From the NCBI GenBank assembly GCA_016278515.1, contig JADQBR010000067.1, positions 62,001 through 126,000 on the forward strand: 64,000 nt of DNA, read 5' to 3'. The notes below the pieces were generated by a model, which saw only the letters and a list, made by a program, of their open reading frames with translations, was not told the origin of the DNA and ran no database searches. The DNA is from Bacillota bacterium (GTDB lineage Bacteria; Bacillota; JADQBR01). Of the stretch, positions 739 to 9,313 are shown one piece after another; position 1 is the stretch's first letter, and the number at the start of each line of letters is the position of its first letter. A program made the position numbers and the translations under genes.

Positions 739-2154
739 TTATACTTTCTTTCCCATAAGAGCCCTAAATGTTAGAAATGGGTGTTTAATTAGACCCATTG
801 CAAAGAGAAATACTATCATTTTATAGGAAAGTTCTCCATTGGCTAAGGCACGAATTGCACTATGCACATAAGAGCCGTATTTATATTTGCTTTCCGATTG
901 TGCAACCGCAATAAATGTCTTCGCAAACCAGTCTTTTTGACTCAACCAATTATTCAATTTGAATAAATTACGTCCATAGAAATTGTCTTTTGCAAAGTGT
1001 TTCAATCGATTATGATAACCCTTCCTTAAGCTTTGATAATCTGCTCCTAAGTGAACTAAAGTTTCAGCAGCTAACTGTGCCCCTAAAACTGCTGCAAAGT
1101 ACCCATCTTTTAACACGCGTCCATAACCTGTTAAATCTCCGATGACAAACCAGTTATCTCCATAAAATGTTTTTGAAGCTCCTAAGTATACTTTAGCACC
1201 ACAGATTGTGTGACAACGCAAACAATCGCTCGGATTACTTAATTCTATAAATTCTTGTACTTGTGGGTGGCCAAATATTATATCTAAATCTTCAATAGAT
1301 AGCTTCTTATTTAGTGTCGTTAATGTTAACCATTTTGGGCCCTTCGGAATAAACGCTACAACACAATCTGGAATAATACCGTCTAAAATAAACATCCGAT
1401 TGCTAATAAGGTTCTTAGTTGCTTTACTTGTATCAACCTCCGTTACGGATGCAGGAATATAAGGAGGCGGTTGGTAACCTGTCGTTTCTTGGAAATTTTT
1501 TAGCATCGGCTTATCGACAGAACGGAATCCACATGCCATAACTACTATATCTGTTTTGAGGACTTTATTAGTATTATCGGGGTTACGTTTACTCAACACT
1601 ACTTCCCATTTATGCTCTTGACCACTTAACCTTAAGACTTTTTTAGCTAAAGTTGGCTCAATTATTTCTATTCTTTCTATCGCTTCCTTAGGTAAACCCT
1701 GAGTGACTCTGTTTTTAATAGAATCATCGAATCCAATGTAGCCGAAACGACTTGTCCGCAATGTTGCTGTTAAGGGTTTAGCTAATTCTACATTAATACT
1801 ACCTGCTTTGTTTATGTAGATACATTCTGTTACCTGTTTTAACACTATATCATCAGGTATATCCAAATTGCATAATTCATCTAAAGTATCCATAGCCAAG
1901 TTCGTAATTAAACCACCGCAATAGTTACAATTAGTGCTATTGACCATAGTAATATTAATCTTCTTTCCTGCTTTATGGGCTTGTAAAGCTAACTGCCTCA
2001 CAAAAATGCTACCGGCAATACCCCCGCCTATAACTGTAACATGGGTATTGTCCTTAATACCTCTACCATCCAATGACTCTAGAGGTGTGTAGAAACCTTT
2101 TAAGCGCTTTCTGAAACGTCTCTCCAGAAAAGAAGACAATTGGTTTGGAACCAT
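739..2154 (-). CDS. FAD-dependent NAD(P)-binding oxidoreductase, substrate unknown
   Basis: 471 residues. A dinucleotide-binding motif GGGIAGS lies near residue 42, a MACGFRSVD segment (second nucleotide-contact region) near 210, and a GDLTGYGRVLKDG segment near 340 that resembles the FAD-contacting GD motif of geranylgeranyl-reductase-like flavoproteins. There is an unusual STNCNYCGG cysteine cluster near residue 75, and further cysteines (CLRCHTIC) near 315. An AAGGGGG ribosome site precedes the ATG. It lies next to the multiheme cytochromes but is divergent from them. I do not recognise the substrate. The protein could be a quinone- or heme-linked oxidoreductase, but this is only inferred from position. 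Confidence 0.7.
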   Translation of the reverse strand: MVPNQLSSFLERRFRKRLKGFYTPLESLDGRGIKDNTHVTVIGGGIAGSIFVRQLALQAHKAGKKINITMVNSTNCNYCGGLITNLAMDTLDELCNLDIPDDIVLKQVTECIYINKAGSINVELAKPLTATLRTSRFGYIGFDDSIKNRVTQGLPKEAIERIEIIEPTLAKKVLRLSGQEHKWEVVLSKRNPDNTNKVLKTDIVVMACGFRSVDKPMLKNFQETTGYQPPPYIPASVTEVDTSKATKNLISNRMFILDGIIPDCVVAFIPKGPKWLTLTTLNKKLSIEDLDIIFGHPQVQEFIELSNPSDCLRCHTICGAKVYLGASKTFYGDNWFVIGDLTGYGRVLKDGYFAAVLGAQLAAETLVHLGADYQSLRKGYHNRLKHFAKDNFYGRNLFKLNNWLSQKDWFAKTFIAVAQSESKYKYGSYVHSAIRALANGELSYKMIVFLFAMGLIKHPFLTFRALMGKKV

Positions 2155-2959: not shown

Positions 2960-3790
2960 CTAAACAAAAAGCAATGGGATAAAACTTACCAACAACAAGA
3001 CAAAGACTGCTATATAAACTATTAATTCAAAAATAATCAGCGGTTTACTGCGAGCAAATTTGGTATGTTTCTCCTCTTCAACTATCTCAACACCCGATTT
3101 CTTTTGCTCATCGAACCATTCCTGATACTCCAGGGGATGCTCTTCTTTCATATGTTCCCTTGATATTTTTCCATTTATCCACACTTTACTGGTTGGAAAA
3201 ACATGGGGATTGAGGTGCACTGCAAAGAAATGACCGGTGAACACCGCCAGCATAGCTACAAAAGCCTCATTAGTATGAGCTATTCTTATTATATGCAGTA
3301 CCCATCTTGGCAATATCCCAAATAAACCCGGGAACCATAGTATTAAGCCTGAACCACCCATAACAATTATTCCCCAAAAAACAGCTAGATATTCAAACTT
3401 TTCCAGATAGGTATACCGGCCATATTCCGGGGGGGCCTTTCTTATACCCAGCAAATATTTTCCATGATCAATGGCATCTCTTACATCCTTGAAAGTTGGT
3501 ACCATACTCATAGCAAGTTCTTTTCTGAAAAACTTGTTAATCATCCAAGCCAAATGGTAGGCACCACTTACTAACATTACCACTGCAAACACTAAGTGAG
3601 TCATAAACATGGTTTCAAAACTACCAAATAAGTTAACTACTGTTTGAGCCCACGGCCAATGTCCATATTTAATTGGGAAACCGGTAATAACCAGCATCAA
3701 CACACTTAGTGCGAGTAAAAAATGTTGATAACGTTGATGTTTATTGAACCTCATTATTTCTTTTGGTAATACTTTTTGCTGTACACTCAT
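2960..3790 (-). CDS. Cytochrome b (b561/FdnI-like) with fused C-terminal helix, module 1
   Basis: 276-residue integral membrane protein of the formate-dehydrogenase-gamma/b561 type, expected to carry two b hemes and to oxidise or reduce menaquinone. Candidate heme ligands are the histidines in FNKHQRYQH (near 18-23), MTH (near 65), RIAHTNE (near 171) and TGHFFAVH (near 187-192). There are four main membrane segments, then a charged stretch and a fifth hydrophobic segment at about 247-276. That fifth segment is absent from its 247-residue paralogue (start 7179) but is matched by a separate 37-residue gene at 6302-6415. It starts 15 bases after the heptaheme cytochrome stop, with an AGGAGGG site, and is clearly cotranscribed with it. 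Confidence 0.85.
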   Translation of the reverse strand: MSVQQKVLPKEIMRFNKHQRYQHFLLALSVLMLVITGFPIKYGHWPWAQTVVNLFGSFETMFMTHLVFAVVMLVSGAYHLAWMINKFFRKELAMSMVPTFKDVRDAIDHGKYLLGIRKAPPEYGRYTYLEKFEYLAVFWGIIVMGGSGLILWFPGLFGILPRWVLHIIRIAHTNEAFVAMLAVFTGHFFAVHLNPHVFPTSKVWINGKISREHMKEEHPLEYQEWFDEQKKSGVEIVEEEKHTKFARSKPLIIFELIVYIAVFVLLLVSFIPLLFV

Positions 3791-3805
3791 TATTTTCCCT
3801 CCTAT

Positions 3806-4747
3806 CTACACGTCCAAGCCTTTTTCGGATGTTTTCGATTGTTTCTTGGACTTATTTAGACTTCTCAATTGTCGAACTAATTCAAAAGGAATTATAGTGC
3901 CATTCATGATAATGTCAAATACTATTAGTAAAATAAATATTTTCCAAACCAGATACAGTGGAAAAGCCTTGTCTTTATCCATCGGGGTTACATGTTCATC
4001 ACCATTGGCAAAACCTTCGCCCGCAAATTGATGACAGCTTGCACATGTTTCCGGCCTATTAGTGGACGACACCATGGATTTTGGATTATCTGCAGGTAGA
4101 ATATTATGATTCCCATGGCAATCCGTACATGTGGCTGCATCCATGTACCCTAATTTTACAGCAGTACCGTGGAAAGAGTAATTGTACGCATCCTTTATCT
4201 GCCCGTCGTGGCATGTTACACAATTATCTGAGACATTTAGTCTATAAGTTGGTGAATTAATATTCTCTTTTTTAAGAATATCATGAGATCCATGGCAATC
4301 ACTGCAATAAGCTGTTTCCTTGCCTTGTTCCGCTAATTGTCCATGTATACTATTTTGATAATCCATTGCATCATCACTGTGACACGATTGACAATTGTCG
4401 GATACACGTTTTTTTAACTCCTCTCCATAAACCGGGTTTTTATGAGGAATATTCGTCACGCCTTCTTGATGGCAGGTTATACAATTATTACTACCATGGA
4501 CTGAATTACCATACATTTCTTCATCAGTAATCAATGAAACCTCTTTCCCATCTCTCACAACAGAAAACCCTTTTTGGCTATGACACTGCAAACACTGTCC
4601 GTTAGTCATGGTTGTTTCAGCTAGGGCCGTATTGCTAAAAACAAAAAAGGTAAAAAAGATTCCAGATACTATAACAGTTAGAAATACCATAACAAATAAT
4701 GTGGTAAATATATAGGTAAAAAGATTACCTAATAACTTCTTCCACAT
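3806..4747 (-). CDS. Heptaheme cytochrome c with N- and C-terminal membrane helices, module 1
   Basis: 313 residues. The N-terminal hydrophobic segment may be a signal or an anchor (possible cleavage after NTALA). Seven CxxCH motifs follow: CLQCH, CITCH, CQSCH, CSDCH, CVTCH, CTDCH, CASCH. A single C-terminal membrane helix and a basic tail end the protein. Extra histidines (SVHG, SIHG, SFHG, GSHD, GNHN) would serve as distal ligands. Probably accepts electrons from the downstream cytochrome b and faces outward. Start chosen at 4747 because AAAGGAGTGAG at 4752-4762 serves this ATG and not the one at 4765. It is colinear with the second-module cytochrome starting at 8046. Confidence 0.88.
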   Translation of the reverse strand: MWKKLLGNLFTYIFTTLFVMVFLTVIVSGIFFTFFVFSNTALAETTMTNGQCLQCHSQKGFSVVRDGKEVSLITDEEMYGNSVHGSNNCITCHQEGVTNIPHKNPVYGEELKKRVSDNCQSCHSDDAMDYQNSIHGQLAEQGKETAYCSDCHGSHDILKKENINSPTYRLNVSDNCVTCHDGQIKDAYNYSFHGTAVKLGYMDAATCTDCHGNHNILPADNPKSMVSSTNRPETCASCHQFAGEGFANGDEHVTPMDKDKAFPLYLVWKIFILLIVFDIIMNGTIIPFELVRQLRSLNKSKKQSKTSEKGLDV

Positions 4748-4863
4748 GATACTCACTCCTTTCATGGCTGGGCTTATGTGCCTTTTCAGACACTAAACCT
4801 CAAGCTTTCCTCATGGCTGCTGGGCCTCGGGAATGAGTCTTTGGGTATTTATTTTGGGGGATC

Positions 4864-4992
4864 TTAGAAAATTAAGTGATAAGCAGCTGCGCCTAAAAAA
4901 TATAAACCGGAAAAAGTAATTAACGCAAGCACAACAACAAACCAAGCAGTAAGGAAATACGTTAATGCGTTACCTAAGGCTAAGCGTACCAT
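4864..4992 (-). CDS. 42-residue membrane peptide resembling the anchor of the adjacent cytochrome c
   Basis: An intact small ORF preceded by AGAGGTGAG at good distance from its ATG. The product is one long hydrophobic helix after MVRLALGNALTY. It lines up with the N-terminus of the next gene (MWKKLLGNLFTY): both share an L-GN--TY--T--FV-V pattern and an SG(L/I) turn at the same place. It is between a Com-like gene and the cytochrome c gene in the same orientation, so it is probably part of the operon. Function unknown; a free paralogue of the cytochrome anchor is the simplest reading. Confidence 0.65.
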   Translation of the reverse strand: MVRLALGNALTYFLTAWFVVVLALITFSGLYFLGAAAYHLIF

Positions 4993-5040
4993 GGTCTCAC
5001 CTCTTTCTTCATGAATTTAGGGCTGATGACTTTAACTACT

Positions 5041-5232
5041 TTAGCTCTTATTAAAATCAATTACCTGGGTTTCACCACCTTCTGTATCATCTGTCAATTT
5101 GAATTCCACAGATTCAATGCCTTTTGTTTTGATGTGTACATACCTTTTACAATGTCGGCATTTGACGATAATGGTATCTTCCTCGATTTGACAGATAATT
5201 TTTTTACACTGGCAGCGGAAAAATTCACTCAT
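5041..5232 (-). CDS. Com-like zinc-ribbon protein, copy 1
   Basis: 63 residues. FRCQCKK near the N-terminus, IICQ, then KCRHCKRY near residue 25 form a four- or five-cysteine metal site in a layout like phage Mu Com (RC..C.K..., CPRCKR). Mu Com is an RNA-binding translational activator. The acidic tail is variable. One of four paralogues in this locus, sharing the invariant block KCRHCKR. Lies directly before the 42-residue membrane peptide and the heptaheme cytochrome. A regulatory or metal/heme-handling role is inferred, not shown. Confidence 0.75.
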   Translation of the reverse strand: MSEFFRCQCKKIICQIEEDTIIVKCRHCKRYVHIKTKGIESVEFKLTDDTEGGETQVIDFNKS

Positions 5233-5268
5233 ATTAACTCCTCCCTCTCCTAAATTAAATTTTAAGTT

Positions 5269-5342
5269 AAAAAAGACTAGACCTACCCTTAATTGGGAGG
5301 TGCTAGTCTTTTTGGCTATGTGCCTGTGACCTTGACCTTAAA
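5269..5342 (-). terminator. Attenuator-type element A before Com-like copy 1
   Basis: Reading the minus strand: GGTCAAGGTCACAGG, then a stem-loop (GACTAGCACCTCCC with a near-perfect complement) and a TTTTTT tract. It points into copy 1, so it could end transcripts before the module. One of seven such elements in the locus; the upstream motif is more divergent here than in elements 1-3. Confidence 0.6.
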
Positions 5343-5353
5343 ATATTTAGTTA

Positions 5354-5426
5354 TAATAAAAGGCTGGAAACCTATAAGTTACAGGGTCTCCAGCCTTAGG
5401 ACTCTATGTCTCTAGCTACGGACTTT
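5354..5426 (-). terminator. Attenuator-type element B between Com-like copies 2 and 1
   Basis: Minus strand: AAGTCCGTAGCTAGAGAC, AGTCC, then a stem AAGGCTGGA/TCCAGCCTT with the U-rich tail TTTTATTA. It keeps the AGTCCG...GAGAC...AGTCC order seen in the elements near 9 kb. Confidence 0.6.
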
Positions 5427-5461
5427 AAATTACTGCTTTTTTCTATTTTCACTATGCGTAC

Positions 5462-5626
5462 TCATAGCACAACTTCCTCAAGTTCATTTTCCAATTTGAA
5501 TTCTGCCTCTATTAATCCTTTAGTATGAATATGAATATATCTTTTACAATGCCTGCATTTTATTATCACTGTATTTCCTTCAATTTGAAAAATCAACTTC
5601 TTACAAGTACAGCGAAAGTCTTTCAT
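5462..5626 (-). CDS. Com-like zinc-ribbon protein, copy 2 (54 residues)
   Basis: Short ORF with an excellent GGAAAGGAGGT ribosome site. It begins MKDFRCTCKK and has KCRHCKRYIHI near residue 24. Compared with copies 1, 3 and 4, the middle cysteine (IICQ) is replaced by phenylalanine (LIFQ), so the CxC and CxxC pairs are probably the true metal ligands. The acidic C-terminus ends EEVVL. Lies between elements C and B on the same strand. Below the usual length cut-off for gene callers and likely to be missed. Confidence 0.7.
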   Translation of the reverse strand: MKDFRCTCKKLIFQIEGNTVIIKCRHCKRYIHIHTKGLIEAEFKLENELEEVVL

Positions 5627-5645
5627 TGTATTACCTCCTTTCCCT

Positions 5646-5717
5646 AAAAAAACATAAGAGGCTAGCTTCTTTAAAAAAGACGCTAGCCTCTTGACTTAAA
5701 GTCTATAGGCCTTGACC
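5646..5717 (-). terminator. Attenuator-type element C between Com-like copies 3 and 2
   Basis: Minus strand: AGGTCAAGGCC, GACTTTAAGTCAAGAGG, then stem GAGGCTAGC/GCTAGCCTC followed by TTATGTTTTTTT. The motif abuts the stop codon of copy 3. Confidence 0.65.
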
Positions 5718-5885
5718 TTAACAAACCTCAAGATTAACTTTTGAATCTTCTATGCTGGTTTCAACTTTCACCGTCCCTTTGGTTCTAATGACAATAAATC
5801 TTTTACAGTGACGACATTTAATTACAATAGTATCGTCGTCAACCTGACAAATAATTTTGTTACATGTACATCTGACGTCTTTCAT
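5718..5885 (-). CDS. Com-like zinc-ribbon protein, copy 3 (55 residues)
   Basis: Starts MKDVRCTCNK, then IICQ and KCRHCKRFIVI; the same cysteine layout as copies 1 and 4. Preceded by GGGGTGGGG, a weaker ribosome site than those of its paralogues. It is the first gene after the 416-base non-coding stretch that holds element D and the direct repeats, so it is probably promoter-proximal in the module 1 transcript. Function inferred only from similarity to Com-type zinc ribbons. Confidence 0.65.
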   Translation of the reverse strand: MKDVRCTCNKIICQVDDDTIVIKCRHCKRFIVIRTKGTVKVETSIEDSKVNLEVC

Positions 5886-5960
5886 AGTAAGCCCCACCCC
5901 ACCTAATTAAATGCTAAAAGTAAATTAAAATTACTCTTAACTCACCTCCTATGAATAATA

Positions 5961-6035
5961 ATTAATAAGACTAGCCCCATAAGACTAGTCTTCGAAAATA
6001 TCTTCTTTGACTCACCCTACAGGATTGCGGTCTTT
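5961..6035 (-). terminator. Attenuator-type element D upstream of Com-like copy 3
   Basis: Minus strand: AAAGACCGCAATCCTGTAGG, GAGTC, then stem AAGACTAG/CTAGTCTT with tail ATTAATTATTATT. Weakest member of the set: the motif is diverged and the tail is not a pure U run. Confidence 0.45.
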
Positions 6036-6038
6036 AAG

Positions 6039-6112
6039 ATTATATATTCGATTGTATTAGTTCACTCATTCACAAACTTATAGAAAAATTTTTAGTTCGT
6101 TAATTCACAAAC
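6039..6112 (-). promoter_or_regulatory. Promoter with tandem 21-bp direct repeats for module 1
   Basis: TATAAT on the minus strand (6039-6044) lacks a recognisable -35 hexamer. Where one should be, a 21-base sequence, TTAGTTC..T.ATTCACAAAC on the plus strand, occurs twice (6057-6077 and 6092-6112), starts 35 bases apart. This layout fits an activator-dependent promoter. The rest of the 5886-6301 gap holds element D and the terminator at 6209. Confidence 0.4.
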
Positions 6113-6208
6113 TTTTGTATTTACTAACCATTTCTTTACTATATCGTATTCTGCATAGAACAAAAAATTCCTTCTTTTATTTTATTATTTTTTGGCAATT
6201 TTTTCTTT

Positions 6209-6240
6209 CAAAAAACCCAGTAGATGTTACTGGGTTTTTT
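6209..6240 (-). terminator. Intrinsic terminator of module 2
   Basis: Inverted repeat AAAAAACCCAGTA/TACTGGGTTTTTT with a 5-base loop, about 60 bases after the 37-residue gene. It can work in both directions and separates module 2 from module 1. Confidence 0.85.
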
Positions 6241-6301
6241 ACAGCAATATTGTTGTTTGCTTTTACGAGAAATCGTTTAGTTTATACGCCTCTCCCATCC
6301 G

Positions 6302-6415
6302 TTACATCAAACCAACGGGAAGGAATACTTTTAAAAACCAAACTAAAATAAAGGCATAAATAATCATTTCCACAATGATTAGTACCTTATTTTTACTATA
6401 ATTATTCACACTCAT
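6302..6415 (-). CDS. 37-residue membrane peptide matching the C-terminal helix of the module 1 cytochrome b
   Basis: ATG preceded by GGGAGG at 8 bases spacing, 20 bases after the cytochrome b stop and in the same operon. The product has one hydrophobic helix. Its SKNKVLIIVEMIIYAF matches ARSKPLIIFELIVYIAVF at the C-terminus of the 276-residue cytochrome b, in the same orientation and at the same distance from the end. It therefore looks like the detached fifth helix of the module 2 cytochrome b. Too short for most gene callers. Confidence 0.75.
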   Translation of the reverse strand: MSVNNYSKNKVLIIVEMIIYAFILVWFLKVFLPVGLM

Positions 6416-6435
6416 AGCATTTTCCTCCCATGTAT

Positions 6436-7179
6436 TCACATTTTTATTTCAGAAGACTCACCTTTTTTATATGAAGGACCCTGCCCTCTTGTCATGCTAT
6501 TATCATTTTCTAATAAGCGTTCCAGTTCAACAGGGTGTTCATGTTCCATTGATTCCTCCGACATTTTTCCATGAAACCACACAAAATTCATAGGGAAGAA
6601 ATCAGGACTAAAGTGTACATTATAAAAGTGCCAAATGAAAATTGCCAATATCGCCAGCATCGCTTCATCACTATGTGCAATCCTTGTACTGTCTATAAAC
6701 CATCGTGGAAAAAACTGGGCTGCTATATCAGGAAACCACATCATAAGGCCGGAACCCGCCATAATGACCATGCCCCAGAATACCGCCCAATAATCAAATT
6801 TCTCTTTGTAAGAATATCTGTCGAATTTAGCAGCTTCTTTAGATAAACCGAAGAGATATCTGAAATTTTGAACCAAATCGGTTACATCTTTGATTGTTGG
6901 TACAGCTGCAATACTAAATTTTCTCTTGATAATCGGGTAAATAATCAAATATAACAAGTGATACACAGCGCTAGCAATCATTACGGCTGCTCCTATCAAG
7001 TGCACCGCAAACATGTTGTCAAATCCACCGAATAAGGCAGTAACCTTAGGTGCCCACCATGAATGATTATACTTAATGGGTAATCCCGTAATTGTTAAAA
7101 CAATAAAACTGGTAAACATCATAATATGCTGTAACCTCTGATGAATATTAAAACGCTCAAACTTTTTTGTAGAAGCCAT
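6436..7179 (-). CDS. Cytochrome b (b561/FdnI-like), short form, module 2
   Basis: 247 residues, closely parallel to the module 1 protein: FNIHQRLQH near residue 12-18, RIAHSDE near 165, and IWHFYNVHFSPDFFP near 185 carry the likely heme histidines. Four membrane segments. It ends in a hydrophilic tail (SYKKGESSEIKM) instead of the extra helix of its paralogue. A GAAGGGAGGG site precedes ATG. It starts 15 bases after the heptaheme cytochrome stop, exactly as in module 1. Expected to exchange electrons between menaquinone and the heptaheme protein. Confidence 0.85.
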   Translation of the reverse strand: MASTKKFERFNIHQRLQHIMMFTSFIVLTITGLPIKYNHSWWAPKVTALFGGFDNMFAVHLIGAAVMIASAVYHLLYLIIYPIIKRKFSIAAVPTIKDVTDLVQNFRYLFGLSKEAAKFDRYSYKEKFDYWAVFWGMVIMAGSGLMMWFPDIAAQFFPRWFIDSTRIAHSDEAMLAILAIFIWHFYNVHFSPDFFPMNFVWFHGKMSEESMEHEHPVELERLLENDNSMTRGQGPSYKKGESSEIKM

Positions 7180-7194
7180 CCTAATCCCTCCCTT

Positions 7195-8046
7195 CTATTT
7201 TTTACCTGCATTTTTATATTTGCGGAATAGATCTAGCTCAATATGAACTATGAGCAGAACAATTGTAGCAATTGTCAACCAAGTAAAGAATTTTAATGTA
7301 TAATACATGGGTTTACCGGGTCCATCGGGTTCAAATGTCCAGTGTTCTGATCCAACTGCAAAGTTAGGTTGTGCAGTATTATGGCAAGACGCACAAGTTT
7401 CTGGCACATTTGCTTTACTTACTGTGGATTTAGGTTCTGTCGGTCCCAATATCATATGATCTGTATGACAGTCAACGCACGTAGCAGCCTTTGTACTGCC
7501 CAAGTTTACAGCTTTCCCATGGAAACTTTCTACATAACTCTCAGCAATTTCACCGCTATGACACTTGGTACAAGTTTCAGTAATATTAGTGCGATTAACT
7601 AATGAATTCTCATTTTCCGTTTTCACAATAGTATGAGCGCCATGACAGTCGGAACAGTATGCCGTTTCTTGACCTTCTGCGGCTAACTTGCCATGAGTAC
7701 TGTCTTTATATTCCTTGTTAACATCAGCATGACACACCTGGCAACGTTCAGTTACCTTAGCGGCCAACTCTCTCACTGATGAGACAGTCTCTTTGTGCGG
7801 AATATCTTCCATTCCAGCATGGCATGTTTGACAATCATTAGTTCCATGTACTGACTGACTTAATTCATTAGAATCCACATAAAGAGAAACGGTTTTGCCC
7901 TCTTTTTCGATACTAAAACCTTTGTTGCTGTGGCACTGCAGACATTGATCATTAGGTTCTGCAGCCTCAGCTACTGAGGCAGTGGCACCAATTAGAACTA
8001 GTGCTAGACTCAAGAATACAAACAAAAGAATTTTTCGAAATGCCAC
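7195..8046 (-). CDS. Heptaheme cytochrome c, C-terminally anchored, module 2
   Basis: 283 residues. A cleavable-looking signal peptide (residues 1-28, VAEAAEP) is followed by seven CxxCH motifs (CLQCH, CQTCH, CQVCH, CSDCH, CTKCH, CVDCH, CASCH) and one C-terminal membrane helix with a lysine-rich end. Motif order and spacing match the module 1 protein. GTG start after AAAGGGGTGACC. Unlike module 1, no separate copy of the N-terminal anchor precedes it. Electron-transfer role by family and context. Confidence 0.88.
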   Translation of the reverse strand: MAFRKILLFVFLSLALVLIGATASVAEAAEPNDQCLQCHSNKGFSIEKEGKTVSLYVDSNELSQSVHGTNDCQTCHAGMEDIPHKETVSSVRELAAKVTERCQVCHADVNKEYKDSTHGKLAAEGQETAYCSDCHGAHTIVKTENENSLVNRTNITETCTKCHSGEIAESYVESFHGKAVNLGSTKAATCVDCHTDHMILGPTEPKSTVSKANVPETCASCHNTAQPNFAVGSEHWTFEPDGPGKPMYYTLKFFTWLTIATIVLLIVHIELDLFRKYKNAGKK

Positions 8047-8091
8047 TTGGGGTCACCCCTTTCTAAATTATTAATTTTTTAAAGCAGTTAT

Positions 8092-8274
8092 TTAAGTCCT
8101 ATAATCAATCTTTTTTTCCCCTCTCTCCGTAGTCTCAAACCCTTCAGTTCTGATGATAATAAATCTCTTACAATGACGACACTTAATAACAATAGTCTTT
8201 TCTTTAACCTGACAGACAATTTTTCCACACTGACAACGAAGGTCTTCTATACTCTTACTCAATTCTTTGCTCAT
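8092..8274 (-). CDS. Com-like zinc-ribbon protein, copy 4
   Basis: 60 residues. Has an N-terminal extension (MSKELSKSIED) before RCQCGK, IVCQ and KCRHCKRFIII. TAAGGAGGA site. It lies between the twin two-helix proteins and the heptaheme cytochrome, the same relative position that copy 1 holds in module 1. That recurrence supports a functional link to the cytochromes rather than chance proximity. Confidence 0.75.
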   Translation of the reverse strand: MSKELSKSIEDLRCQCGKIVCQVKEKTIVIKCRHCKRFIIIRTEGFETTERGEKKIDYRT

Positions 8275-8301
8275 GCTATCCTCCTTATCTCTTAATGGAA
8301 T

Positions 8302-8502
8302 TTAAATTGGTAAAACAGGCGGCCATACAATAAATACTGATAGATTCATAACAGCAAAGGTTATGAAGAAACCAAAGAATATAGTTGAAAGATTAGACTG
8401 CATTCCTTGTTCCCAATTAAAAACATGCTTCACAATATAAAAACTTAATGAGAAACCAAAAACCACACTTAACAACATCCCTGTAACTATTAACATCATC
8501 AT
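8302..8502 (-). CDS. 66-residue two-helix membrane protein ending WPPVLPI
   Basis: Start placed at the first of three ATGs, right after AAGGAGGGG; a longer upstream frame lacks a ribosome site. Two hydrophobic helices (about 3-25 and 40-60) and a C-terminal FIVWPPVLPI. It is similar in size, topology and C-terminus to the next upstream gene, so the two are tandem paralogues. I do not recognise the family. Cotranscribed with module 2. Confidence 0.7.
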   Translation of the reverse strand: MMMLIVTGMLLSVVFGFSLSFYIVKHVFNWEQGMQSNLSTIFFGFFITFAVMNLSVFIVWPPVLPI

Positions 8503-8542
8503 TACTAACCCCTCCTTGTTTTTAGAACAATCAACCCAATAT

Positions 8543-8740
8543 CTATAGAGGCAATATAGGTGGCCAAACAGCAAAAATACCTAAACTTATAACCATGACC
8601 GAAAGAACTAAACCCAGTGGAACAGCAACAACGTAAGCAATCTTACTACTTAGCTGAAAAGTATACTTTGATAGATAAACTGCCAAAGAAAAGCTAAATG
8701 TTACTGCCAACAAAATTCCTAGTACAAAGTACATAATCAT
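8543..8740 (-). CDS. 65-residue two-helix membrane protein ending WPPILPL
   Basis: First gene of module 2, with a GAGGGGGAAG site. Two hydrophobic helices and the C-terminal motif FAVWPPILPL, shared with its downstream neighbour (FIVWPPVLPI). It is preceded by three tandem attenuator elements over about 400 bases. Family not recognised; small subunits of a membrane cytochrome complex are a reasonable guess. Confidence 0.7.
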   Translation of the reverse strand: MIMYFVLGILLAVTFSFSLAVYLSKYTFQLSSKIAYVVAVPLGLVLSVMVISLGIFAVWPPILPL

Positions 8741-8812
8741 TGTTCTTCCCCCTCATTATTCTAATTACTAGCTGGTTGAGAAACGAAATTAATTTCCTTT
8801 GTTCGTCCGAAA

Positions 8813-8875
8813 TAAAAAGAGACCAGCATTAAATATAACTATCGCTGGTCTCTGGACTTAAAGTCTCCGGACTTA
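8813..8875 (-). terminator. Attenuator-type element 1 upstream of module 2
   Basis: Minus strand: AGTCCGGAGACTTTAAGTCC, then AGAGACCAGC...GCTGGTCTCT and TTTTTATTT. The motif contains AGTCCRGAGAC twice. It faces the first gene of module 2, 73 bases downstream. The 8741-9313 gap holds this element and elements 2 and 3; nothing else was seen. Confidence 0.75.
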
Positions 8876-8985
8876 GTGTATTCTTTTTGTTTAGATTTTT
8901 TTTGCCCCACCTCCCAGTAGTAAGAAGTTCGGGACCTCGCCAGAATGATGTTTAATAAATCTTACGAAACATTATCCTGTAGACA

Positions 8986-9040
8986 TAAAAAACCAGCATC
9001 AAAAAAATGTGCTGGTCTCTGGACTTGAAGTCTCCGGACT
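8986..9040 (-). terminator. Attenuator-type element 2 upstream of module 2
   Basis: Same order as element 1: AGTCCGGAGACTTCAAGTCC, stem ACCAGCAC/GTGCTGGT region, TTTTTTA tail. Differs from element 1 by one base in the 20-base motif while the stem bases differ, so the motif is conserved independently of the hairpin. Confidence 0.75.
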
Positions 9041-9142
9041 AATTCTAAATTGTGATTTTCATAATGCTTCGTCCGAGACTTAGGCCAGTAGGCAGTTTGC
9101 CTATTTTTAAGCATATAAAAATTGCTCGCCCTTTGTTTACAC

Positions 9143-9193
9143 AAAAAGCCAGCATTCTTATCTGCTGGCCTCTGGACTTAAAGTCTCCGGACT
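9143..9193 (-). terminator. Attenuator-type element 3 upstream of module 2
   Basis: AGTCCGGAGACTTTAAGTCC, identical to element 1 in the motif, then stem GCCAGCA/TGCTGGC and TTTTTG. It is the most upstream of the three and about 120 bases from the ddl stop codon, so it may also terminate ddl transcripts. Confidence 0.75.
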
Positions 9194-9313
9194 TTTTGCG
9201 ACTAAACTATTCAAGTTAAGATTTTCACAATTGCTTTACTAACTTATTCTCTATTAAAATATAGAATCCTTCCTAAAACATAATTTATTTTTAAAAAATT
9301 TCTATCGATAAAT

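Follow-up and report, generated by a model that had tools for sequence, protein, structure and literature searches.

Introduction

Com of bacteriophage Mu, a translational activator of mom (PMC6483171), binds the sequence 5'-CC(N)2-3GAG-3' in hairpin loops closed by a C-G pair; the GA dinucleotide is essential, and bipartite sites are favoured (Nowacka et al., PMC6483171). ANTAR, BglG/SacY, and other protein-dependent antiterminators serve several operons through a short RNA structure that is mutually exclusive with a terminator. The leader element described below shares these features, whereas its putative readers belong to an unrelated protein family and its loops are of the CNGA type, rather than ANTAR hexaloops or RAT hairpins. 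On the side of electron transport, the CbcL/Cbc-like cytochromes of Geobacter and Carboxydocella combine a multiheme c-type part with a di-heme b-type membrane partner, and one report terms the Carboxydocella pairs CbcL-like quinol-oxidising modules (PMC6085454). Little is known of the genetics by which electroactive Gram-positive bacteria regulate extracellular and quinol-linked electron transport.

The window analysed here, a stretch of 64,000 nucleotides from a genome of 4.27 Mb, contains two cytochrome modules within positions 2960-9193. In contrast to CbcL, their c and b561-type parts are encoded by adjacent separate genes, and the c-type part carries seven hemes. Going by knowledge of the family, the pairs would be CbcL-like menaquinol-oxidising modules. 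The small membrane proteins, zinc ribbons, and leaders that accompany them are not mentioned for the Carboxydocella pairs in the accessible part of PMC6085454.

Results

Two Parallel Cytochrome Modules Share Their Accessory Genes

Both modules lie on the (-) strand, and their features are given in the order of transcription.

Module A, beginning with three leaders (9194-8805):
9140..9194 (-): leader element 1 with overlapping terminator; core 9164-9194; 46.7 bits with covariance model R1; stem of 10-11 pairs plus U-run
8985..9041 (-): leader element 2 with terminator; core 9011-9041; covariance model 40.8 bits
8805..8874 (-): leader element 3 with terminator; core 8844-8874; covariance model 45.2 bits; fold z -5.5
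8543..8740 (-): small membrane protein, WPP family, 65 aa, C-terminal WPP
8302..8502 (-): small membrane protein, WPP family, 66 aa from an inner ATG
8092..8274 (-): Com-like zinc ribbon, CxCGK subtype
7195..8046 (-): heptaheme c-type cytochrome, 7 CxxCH; PF09699, PF14522
6436..7179 (-): b561/FdnI-type cytochrome b; PF01292
6302..6415 (-): small transmembrane (TM) protein, 37 aa; 26 homologues

Module B, with four leaders interspersed among three ribbons:
5950..6030 (-): divergent leader with terminator, 5' of the first module B ribbon; orthologous leader in locus L034; no covariance model match; fold z -1.9
5718..5885 (-): Com-like zinc ribbon, CxCNK subtype
5645..5712 (-): leader element with terminator; core 5682-5712; covariance model 39.6 bits; fold z -3.7
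5462..5626 (-): Com-like zinc ribbon, CxCKK subtype
5350..5425 (-): divergent leader element with terminator; its orthologue L034:5728 matches the covariance model; fold z -4.1
5262..5345 (-): divergent leader element with terminator; fold z -5.3
5041..5232 (-): Com-like zinc ribbon, CxCKK subtype; AlphaFold model all-beta, pLDDT 75
4864..4992 (-): membrane protein, 42 aa; 12 homologues
3806..4765 (-): heptaheme c-type cytochrome, 7 CxxCH
2960..3790 (-): b561/FdnI-type cytochrome b with an extra C-terminal TM segment; PF01292

The c proteins of the two modules are 46% identical and the b proteins 42%. An earlier, sequence-only reading of this DNA had described the same gene set in the same order, including the 15-nt gap between c and b, the tiny membrane proteins, and terminator-type attenuators with a common motif in both modules. 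This description proved accurate, with three of the module B leaders being too divergent for the covariance model.

The small membrane proteins fall into three recurrent families, namely the WPP family (44 matches at 30 loci), the 42-residue family (12 at 12), and a C-terminal-TM family (26 at 26). The last of these is probably a split subunit, since the 37-residue protein is similar to the TM segment at the C-terminus of module B cytochrome b. More generally, it is quite plausible that the small membrane proteins are subunits of the c/b complex. At one locus (L104) a WPP protein stands alone 3' of an element, flanked by ftsZ and a sporulation gene.

Further genes lie near module B. A short NapC/NirT-type c cytochrome with four CxxCH motifs (2430-2852, + strand) is convergent with module B and shares a terminator with it, and a 471-residue protein with a GGGIAGS nucleotide-binding motif is encoded at 739-2154 (-), for which Pfam gave no match at E 0.001. 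Loci of the Thermincola type have a 6-heme cytochrome 3' of the c/b pair, on the same strand.

The Leaders Carry a Tandem RNA Element That Overlaps a Terminator

The motif common to the leaders of the window and its relatives is AGUCCNGAGACUUUAAGUCCAGAGRCCAGC, followed by a terminator. The element, ~27 nt and repeated, consists of two or more GYC-CNGA-GRC units, the last of which overlaps the intrinsic terminator in such a way that its 3' arm is the 5' arm of the terminator stem. A terminator stem with a T-run overlaps 70 of 77 elements, as compared to 50 of 348 control sites; the leaders are thus attenuators, with a structure mutually exclusive with a terminator hairpin and its U-run. Relative to shuffled sequences, fold z lies between -3.5 and -5.5 in five of the seven leaders of the window and is -2.6 and -1.9 in the other two. 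A generic terminator scan of the window, restricted to loops of 3-8 nt and uninformative because of this limit, returned one site, fewer than in shuffles.

Covariation was observed as a UA to CG exchange at pair 3 of the first unit. It supports equally tandem mini-hairpins and a single extended hairpin whose internal loop is CNGA/CNGA, and the arrays of up to four or five units in complex I leaders favour independent units. In searches of Rfam 15 at gathering score only tRNA passes, leaving the leaders without a family, and the sub-threshold matches to PsrR1 and sok are ascribed to chance. The leaders also differ from the ANTAR type, defined by tandem hexaloop hairpins with A1 and G4, in that their loops are CNGA or variants. 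CsrA was considered as the binding factor and is unlikely because CAGA, the sequence of most second loops, and CUGA lack GGA.

Ribbons Accompany the Cytochrome Pair in Other Bacillota

The window genome encodes exactly four ribbons, all of them at modules A and B. A profile of four rows detected ribbons in 20 of 101 relatives, representing 16 genera, and 32 ribbon loci were found in the GTDB set. The same set of module genes was found in other Bacillota, among them Thermincola, Carboxydocella, and Frackibacter, and ribbon, c, and b occur together in most loci with enough flanking sequence. Co-occurrence beyond this genome was a test that the sequence-only reading had proposed, and it was found: cytochrome b profile matches (E up to 1e-20) are present in 15 of the 101 relatives, all 15 of which contain ribbons. 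Of 23 places with this cytochrome b, 22 adjoin a ribbon; the remaining one (G001:C1:3073129) carries the RNA element instead. Because the search was seeded with ribbons from c/b-type loci, it may have under-sampled those located in other contexts. The ribbons and the three membrane families are kept in distant relatives and are therefore real genes; missing coding conservation of the small ORFs would have counted against the sequence-only reading.

Ribbons are also found elsewhere. In five ribbon genomes (G048, G086, G153, G162, and G390) the ribbon adjoins ddl and no element was detected. At loci L107, L108, L035, L038, and L172, which lack the cytochrome module, a solitary ribbon lies directly 3' of ddl, with no element detected; their fusA-ddl synteny marks the same place as in the window. 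These ddl-adjacent ribbons are perhaps relics, or their element escaped detection. Another ribbon (L112:7471-7671, genome G004) is flanked by a MerR-type regulator on one side and a CcmH-like gene of cytochrome c biogenesis on the other, with no local element. Two loci (L109 and L110), in genomes without the element, encode divergent ribbons of the form CxC...KC[SG]KCKR, whose second knuckle is closer to classical Com.

The Element Tracks the Ribbons and Recurs at Distant Operons

A covariance model search of the whole 4.27-Mb genome returned only chance-level matches outside this locus. The element is present in at least 14 of the 101 relatives, all 14 of which have ribbons. Across the phylum it was found in at least 29 of 399 genomes, 27 of the 29 having ribbons (Fisher p 1.6e-28, overstated because the genomes are related). 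The two exceptions (G260 and G284), the only element-bearing members of the 356 ribbon-less genomes, are metagenome-assembled and 63% and 61% complete. Of at least 109 element copies, at least 86 are no more than 2 kb away from a ribbon, and an element is located at the stop codon in 33 of 61 ribbon genes.

Most of the remaining copies stand, each together with its terminator, 5' of genes distant from any ribbon. One precedes a hexaheme c/b pair (L105) and one the lone WPP protein of L104; others are located 5' of AAA and VWA genes (six loci), an MFS transporter operon (four loci), Nitro_FeMo-Co and ParA/ferredoxin genes, the start of an ATP synthase operon, and complex I (two loci). The complex I (nuo) leaders, in Frackibacter and a sister genus of the same family, contain GYCCAGMGRC arrays of up to four or five units followed by a terminator (L168 3145-3408 and L169 3270). 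A cis-only explanation is insufficient for such copies, and a trans-acting reader is therefore needed.

These distant copies bear on the proposal of the sequence-only reading that ribbons, peptides, and attenuators all belong to the electron-transfer machine. The recurrence on which it was based is real, and the small membrane proteins may be accommodated in such a complex, but its extension to the ribbons is not supported. If the ribbons were cytoplasmic subunits of the cytochrome complex or helped to assemble it, their near-invariable neighbourhood with the c/b pair and the one ribbon beside CcmH would be explained. However, the c subunit is extracytoplasmic, and inspection of the ribbons by eye reveals no evident export signal or TM segment. 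Their occurrence follows that of both the cytochromes and the RNA element, they persist where local cytochromes are absent, the L105 pair has an element but no local ribbon, and elements precede unrelated operons. A structural role for the ribbons is accordingly very improbable, and a regulatory layer is the better interpretation of ribbons and attenuators.

The Ribbons Resemble Mu Com, and Their Subtype Follows the Leader Loops

A profile of the ribbons aligns with Mu Com with an hhalign probability of 95.5 (E 1.6e-8, 33 columns, 30% identity). Like Com, the ribbons have ~60 residues, four cysteines at corresponding positions, and a [KR]CxxCKR core, and the gene lies just 5' of its presumptive target and carries the RNA site at its 3' end, as in the com-site-mom layout. 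They differ from Com in their first knuckle, the pattern being CxC...CxxC throughout rather than CxxC...CxxC, and in being chromosomal, multi-copy, and associated with a bacterial respiratory regulon. The best window ribbon scores 13.7 bits against PF10122, below the gathering score of 22.9, and 5 of 44 family members match weakly. Pfam and NCBIfam searches gave no match above cut-off, a PDB sequence search gave two weak histone-methyltransferase matches only, and tblastn against phages gave none. Foldseek with the AlphaFold model, which is of moderate confidence, returned nothing significant (best E 0.34).

The element was defined before the comparison with the published Com site. Its C-CNGA-G unit reads CC(N)1GAG, and does so in each of the two halves in 56 of 78 elements; it starts with CC and ends with GAG as in Com sites, whereas its loop is one base below the Com minimum and it overlaps terminators.

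Moreover, the loop class of an element matches the subtype of the next ribbon in 46 of 50 cases (p 7e-9, again overstated by the relatedness of genomes). Elements with deviating loops are followed by a CxC[KH]K ribbon in 15 of 17 cases, and CC/CC elements by a CxCGK ribbon in 31 of 33. The correlation follows paralogous lineages, and the contrast holds within single genomes, such as that of the window.

It is conceivable that another factor or a small ligand reads the element and that the ribbons are merely co-regulated genes. Some genomes have ribbons without any element, and ribbon function is predicted from sequence. Against this, an element of such size, repeated, is too small for a typical riboswitch and matches no Rfam family; elements in ribbon-less genomes are confined to the two incomplete assemblies; and the loops both match the Com motif and track ribbon subtype. 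This alternative is thus improbable, if slightly less so than a structural role for the ribbons.

A Model for Ribbon-Dependent Antitermination

Taken together, a simple model would suggest that the ribbons are Com-like RNA-binding regulators and that their binding to the leader blocks termination, allowing the genes to be read; a probability of about 0.65 is assigned to this reading. When no ribbon is bound, the terminator would form and RNA polymerase would stop. A ribbon binding to the CNGA loops of the nascent leader would hold the 5' arm of the terminator, which could then no longer form, and the downstream genes would be transcribed. Antitermination is the simplest reading because holding the last unit excludes the terminator. 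The ribbon genes are located, between successive leaders, inside the operons that they are predicted to control; each ribbon made would therefore let polymerase pass the next leader, resulting in a positive-feedback cascade. In other genomes the same protein would act in trans on distant respiratory operons. The signal may be the metal or redox state of the Cys4 site, which is a guess.

Alternatively, ribbons could bind the element and promote termination, resulting in repression, or affect how the next gene is translated, in the manner of Com and mom. Translational activation is the role of Com, many elements lie just 5' of a small ORF, and those at ribbon stop codons resemble the com-mom layout. 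Yet nearly all elements share an arm with an intrinsic terminator (the 70 of 77 above), which a stabilised second unit excludes, and several are located hundreds of bases 5' of the start codon. Repression or translational control is therefore unlikely, although it is the strongest of the competing explanations.

The antitermination model can be extended to a chromosomal family of sequence-specific RNA-binding antiterminators that governs an anaerobic respiration regulon comprising quinol-oxidising cytochromes, complex I, ATP synthase, and others, with paralogues of matched loop specificity and a feed-forward cascade through successive leaders. This wider proposal is more tentative, its odds being slightly below even. 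If correct, a widespread family of tiny proteins that has no name would acquire a function, and a new RNA element would be defined together with the regulon it serves. The role of a phage regulator, so far known only for the translation of mom, would likewise be extended to the control of respiration by transcription in bacteria. The pairing of loops and ribbons makes the specificity of protein-RNA recognition directly testable. No earlier description of the ribbon/element switch was found in the literature searched, in which subscription journals are thinly covered.

The element was additionally observed 5' of a B12-binding radical SAM gene at three loci (L052, L168:13253, and L169:13117), in the first of which it lies directly 3' of a ribbon.
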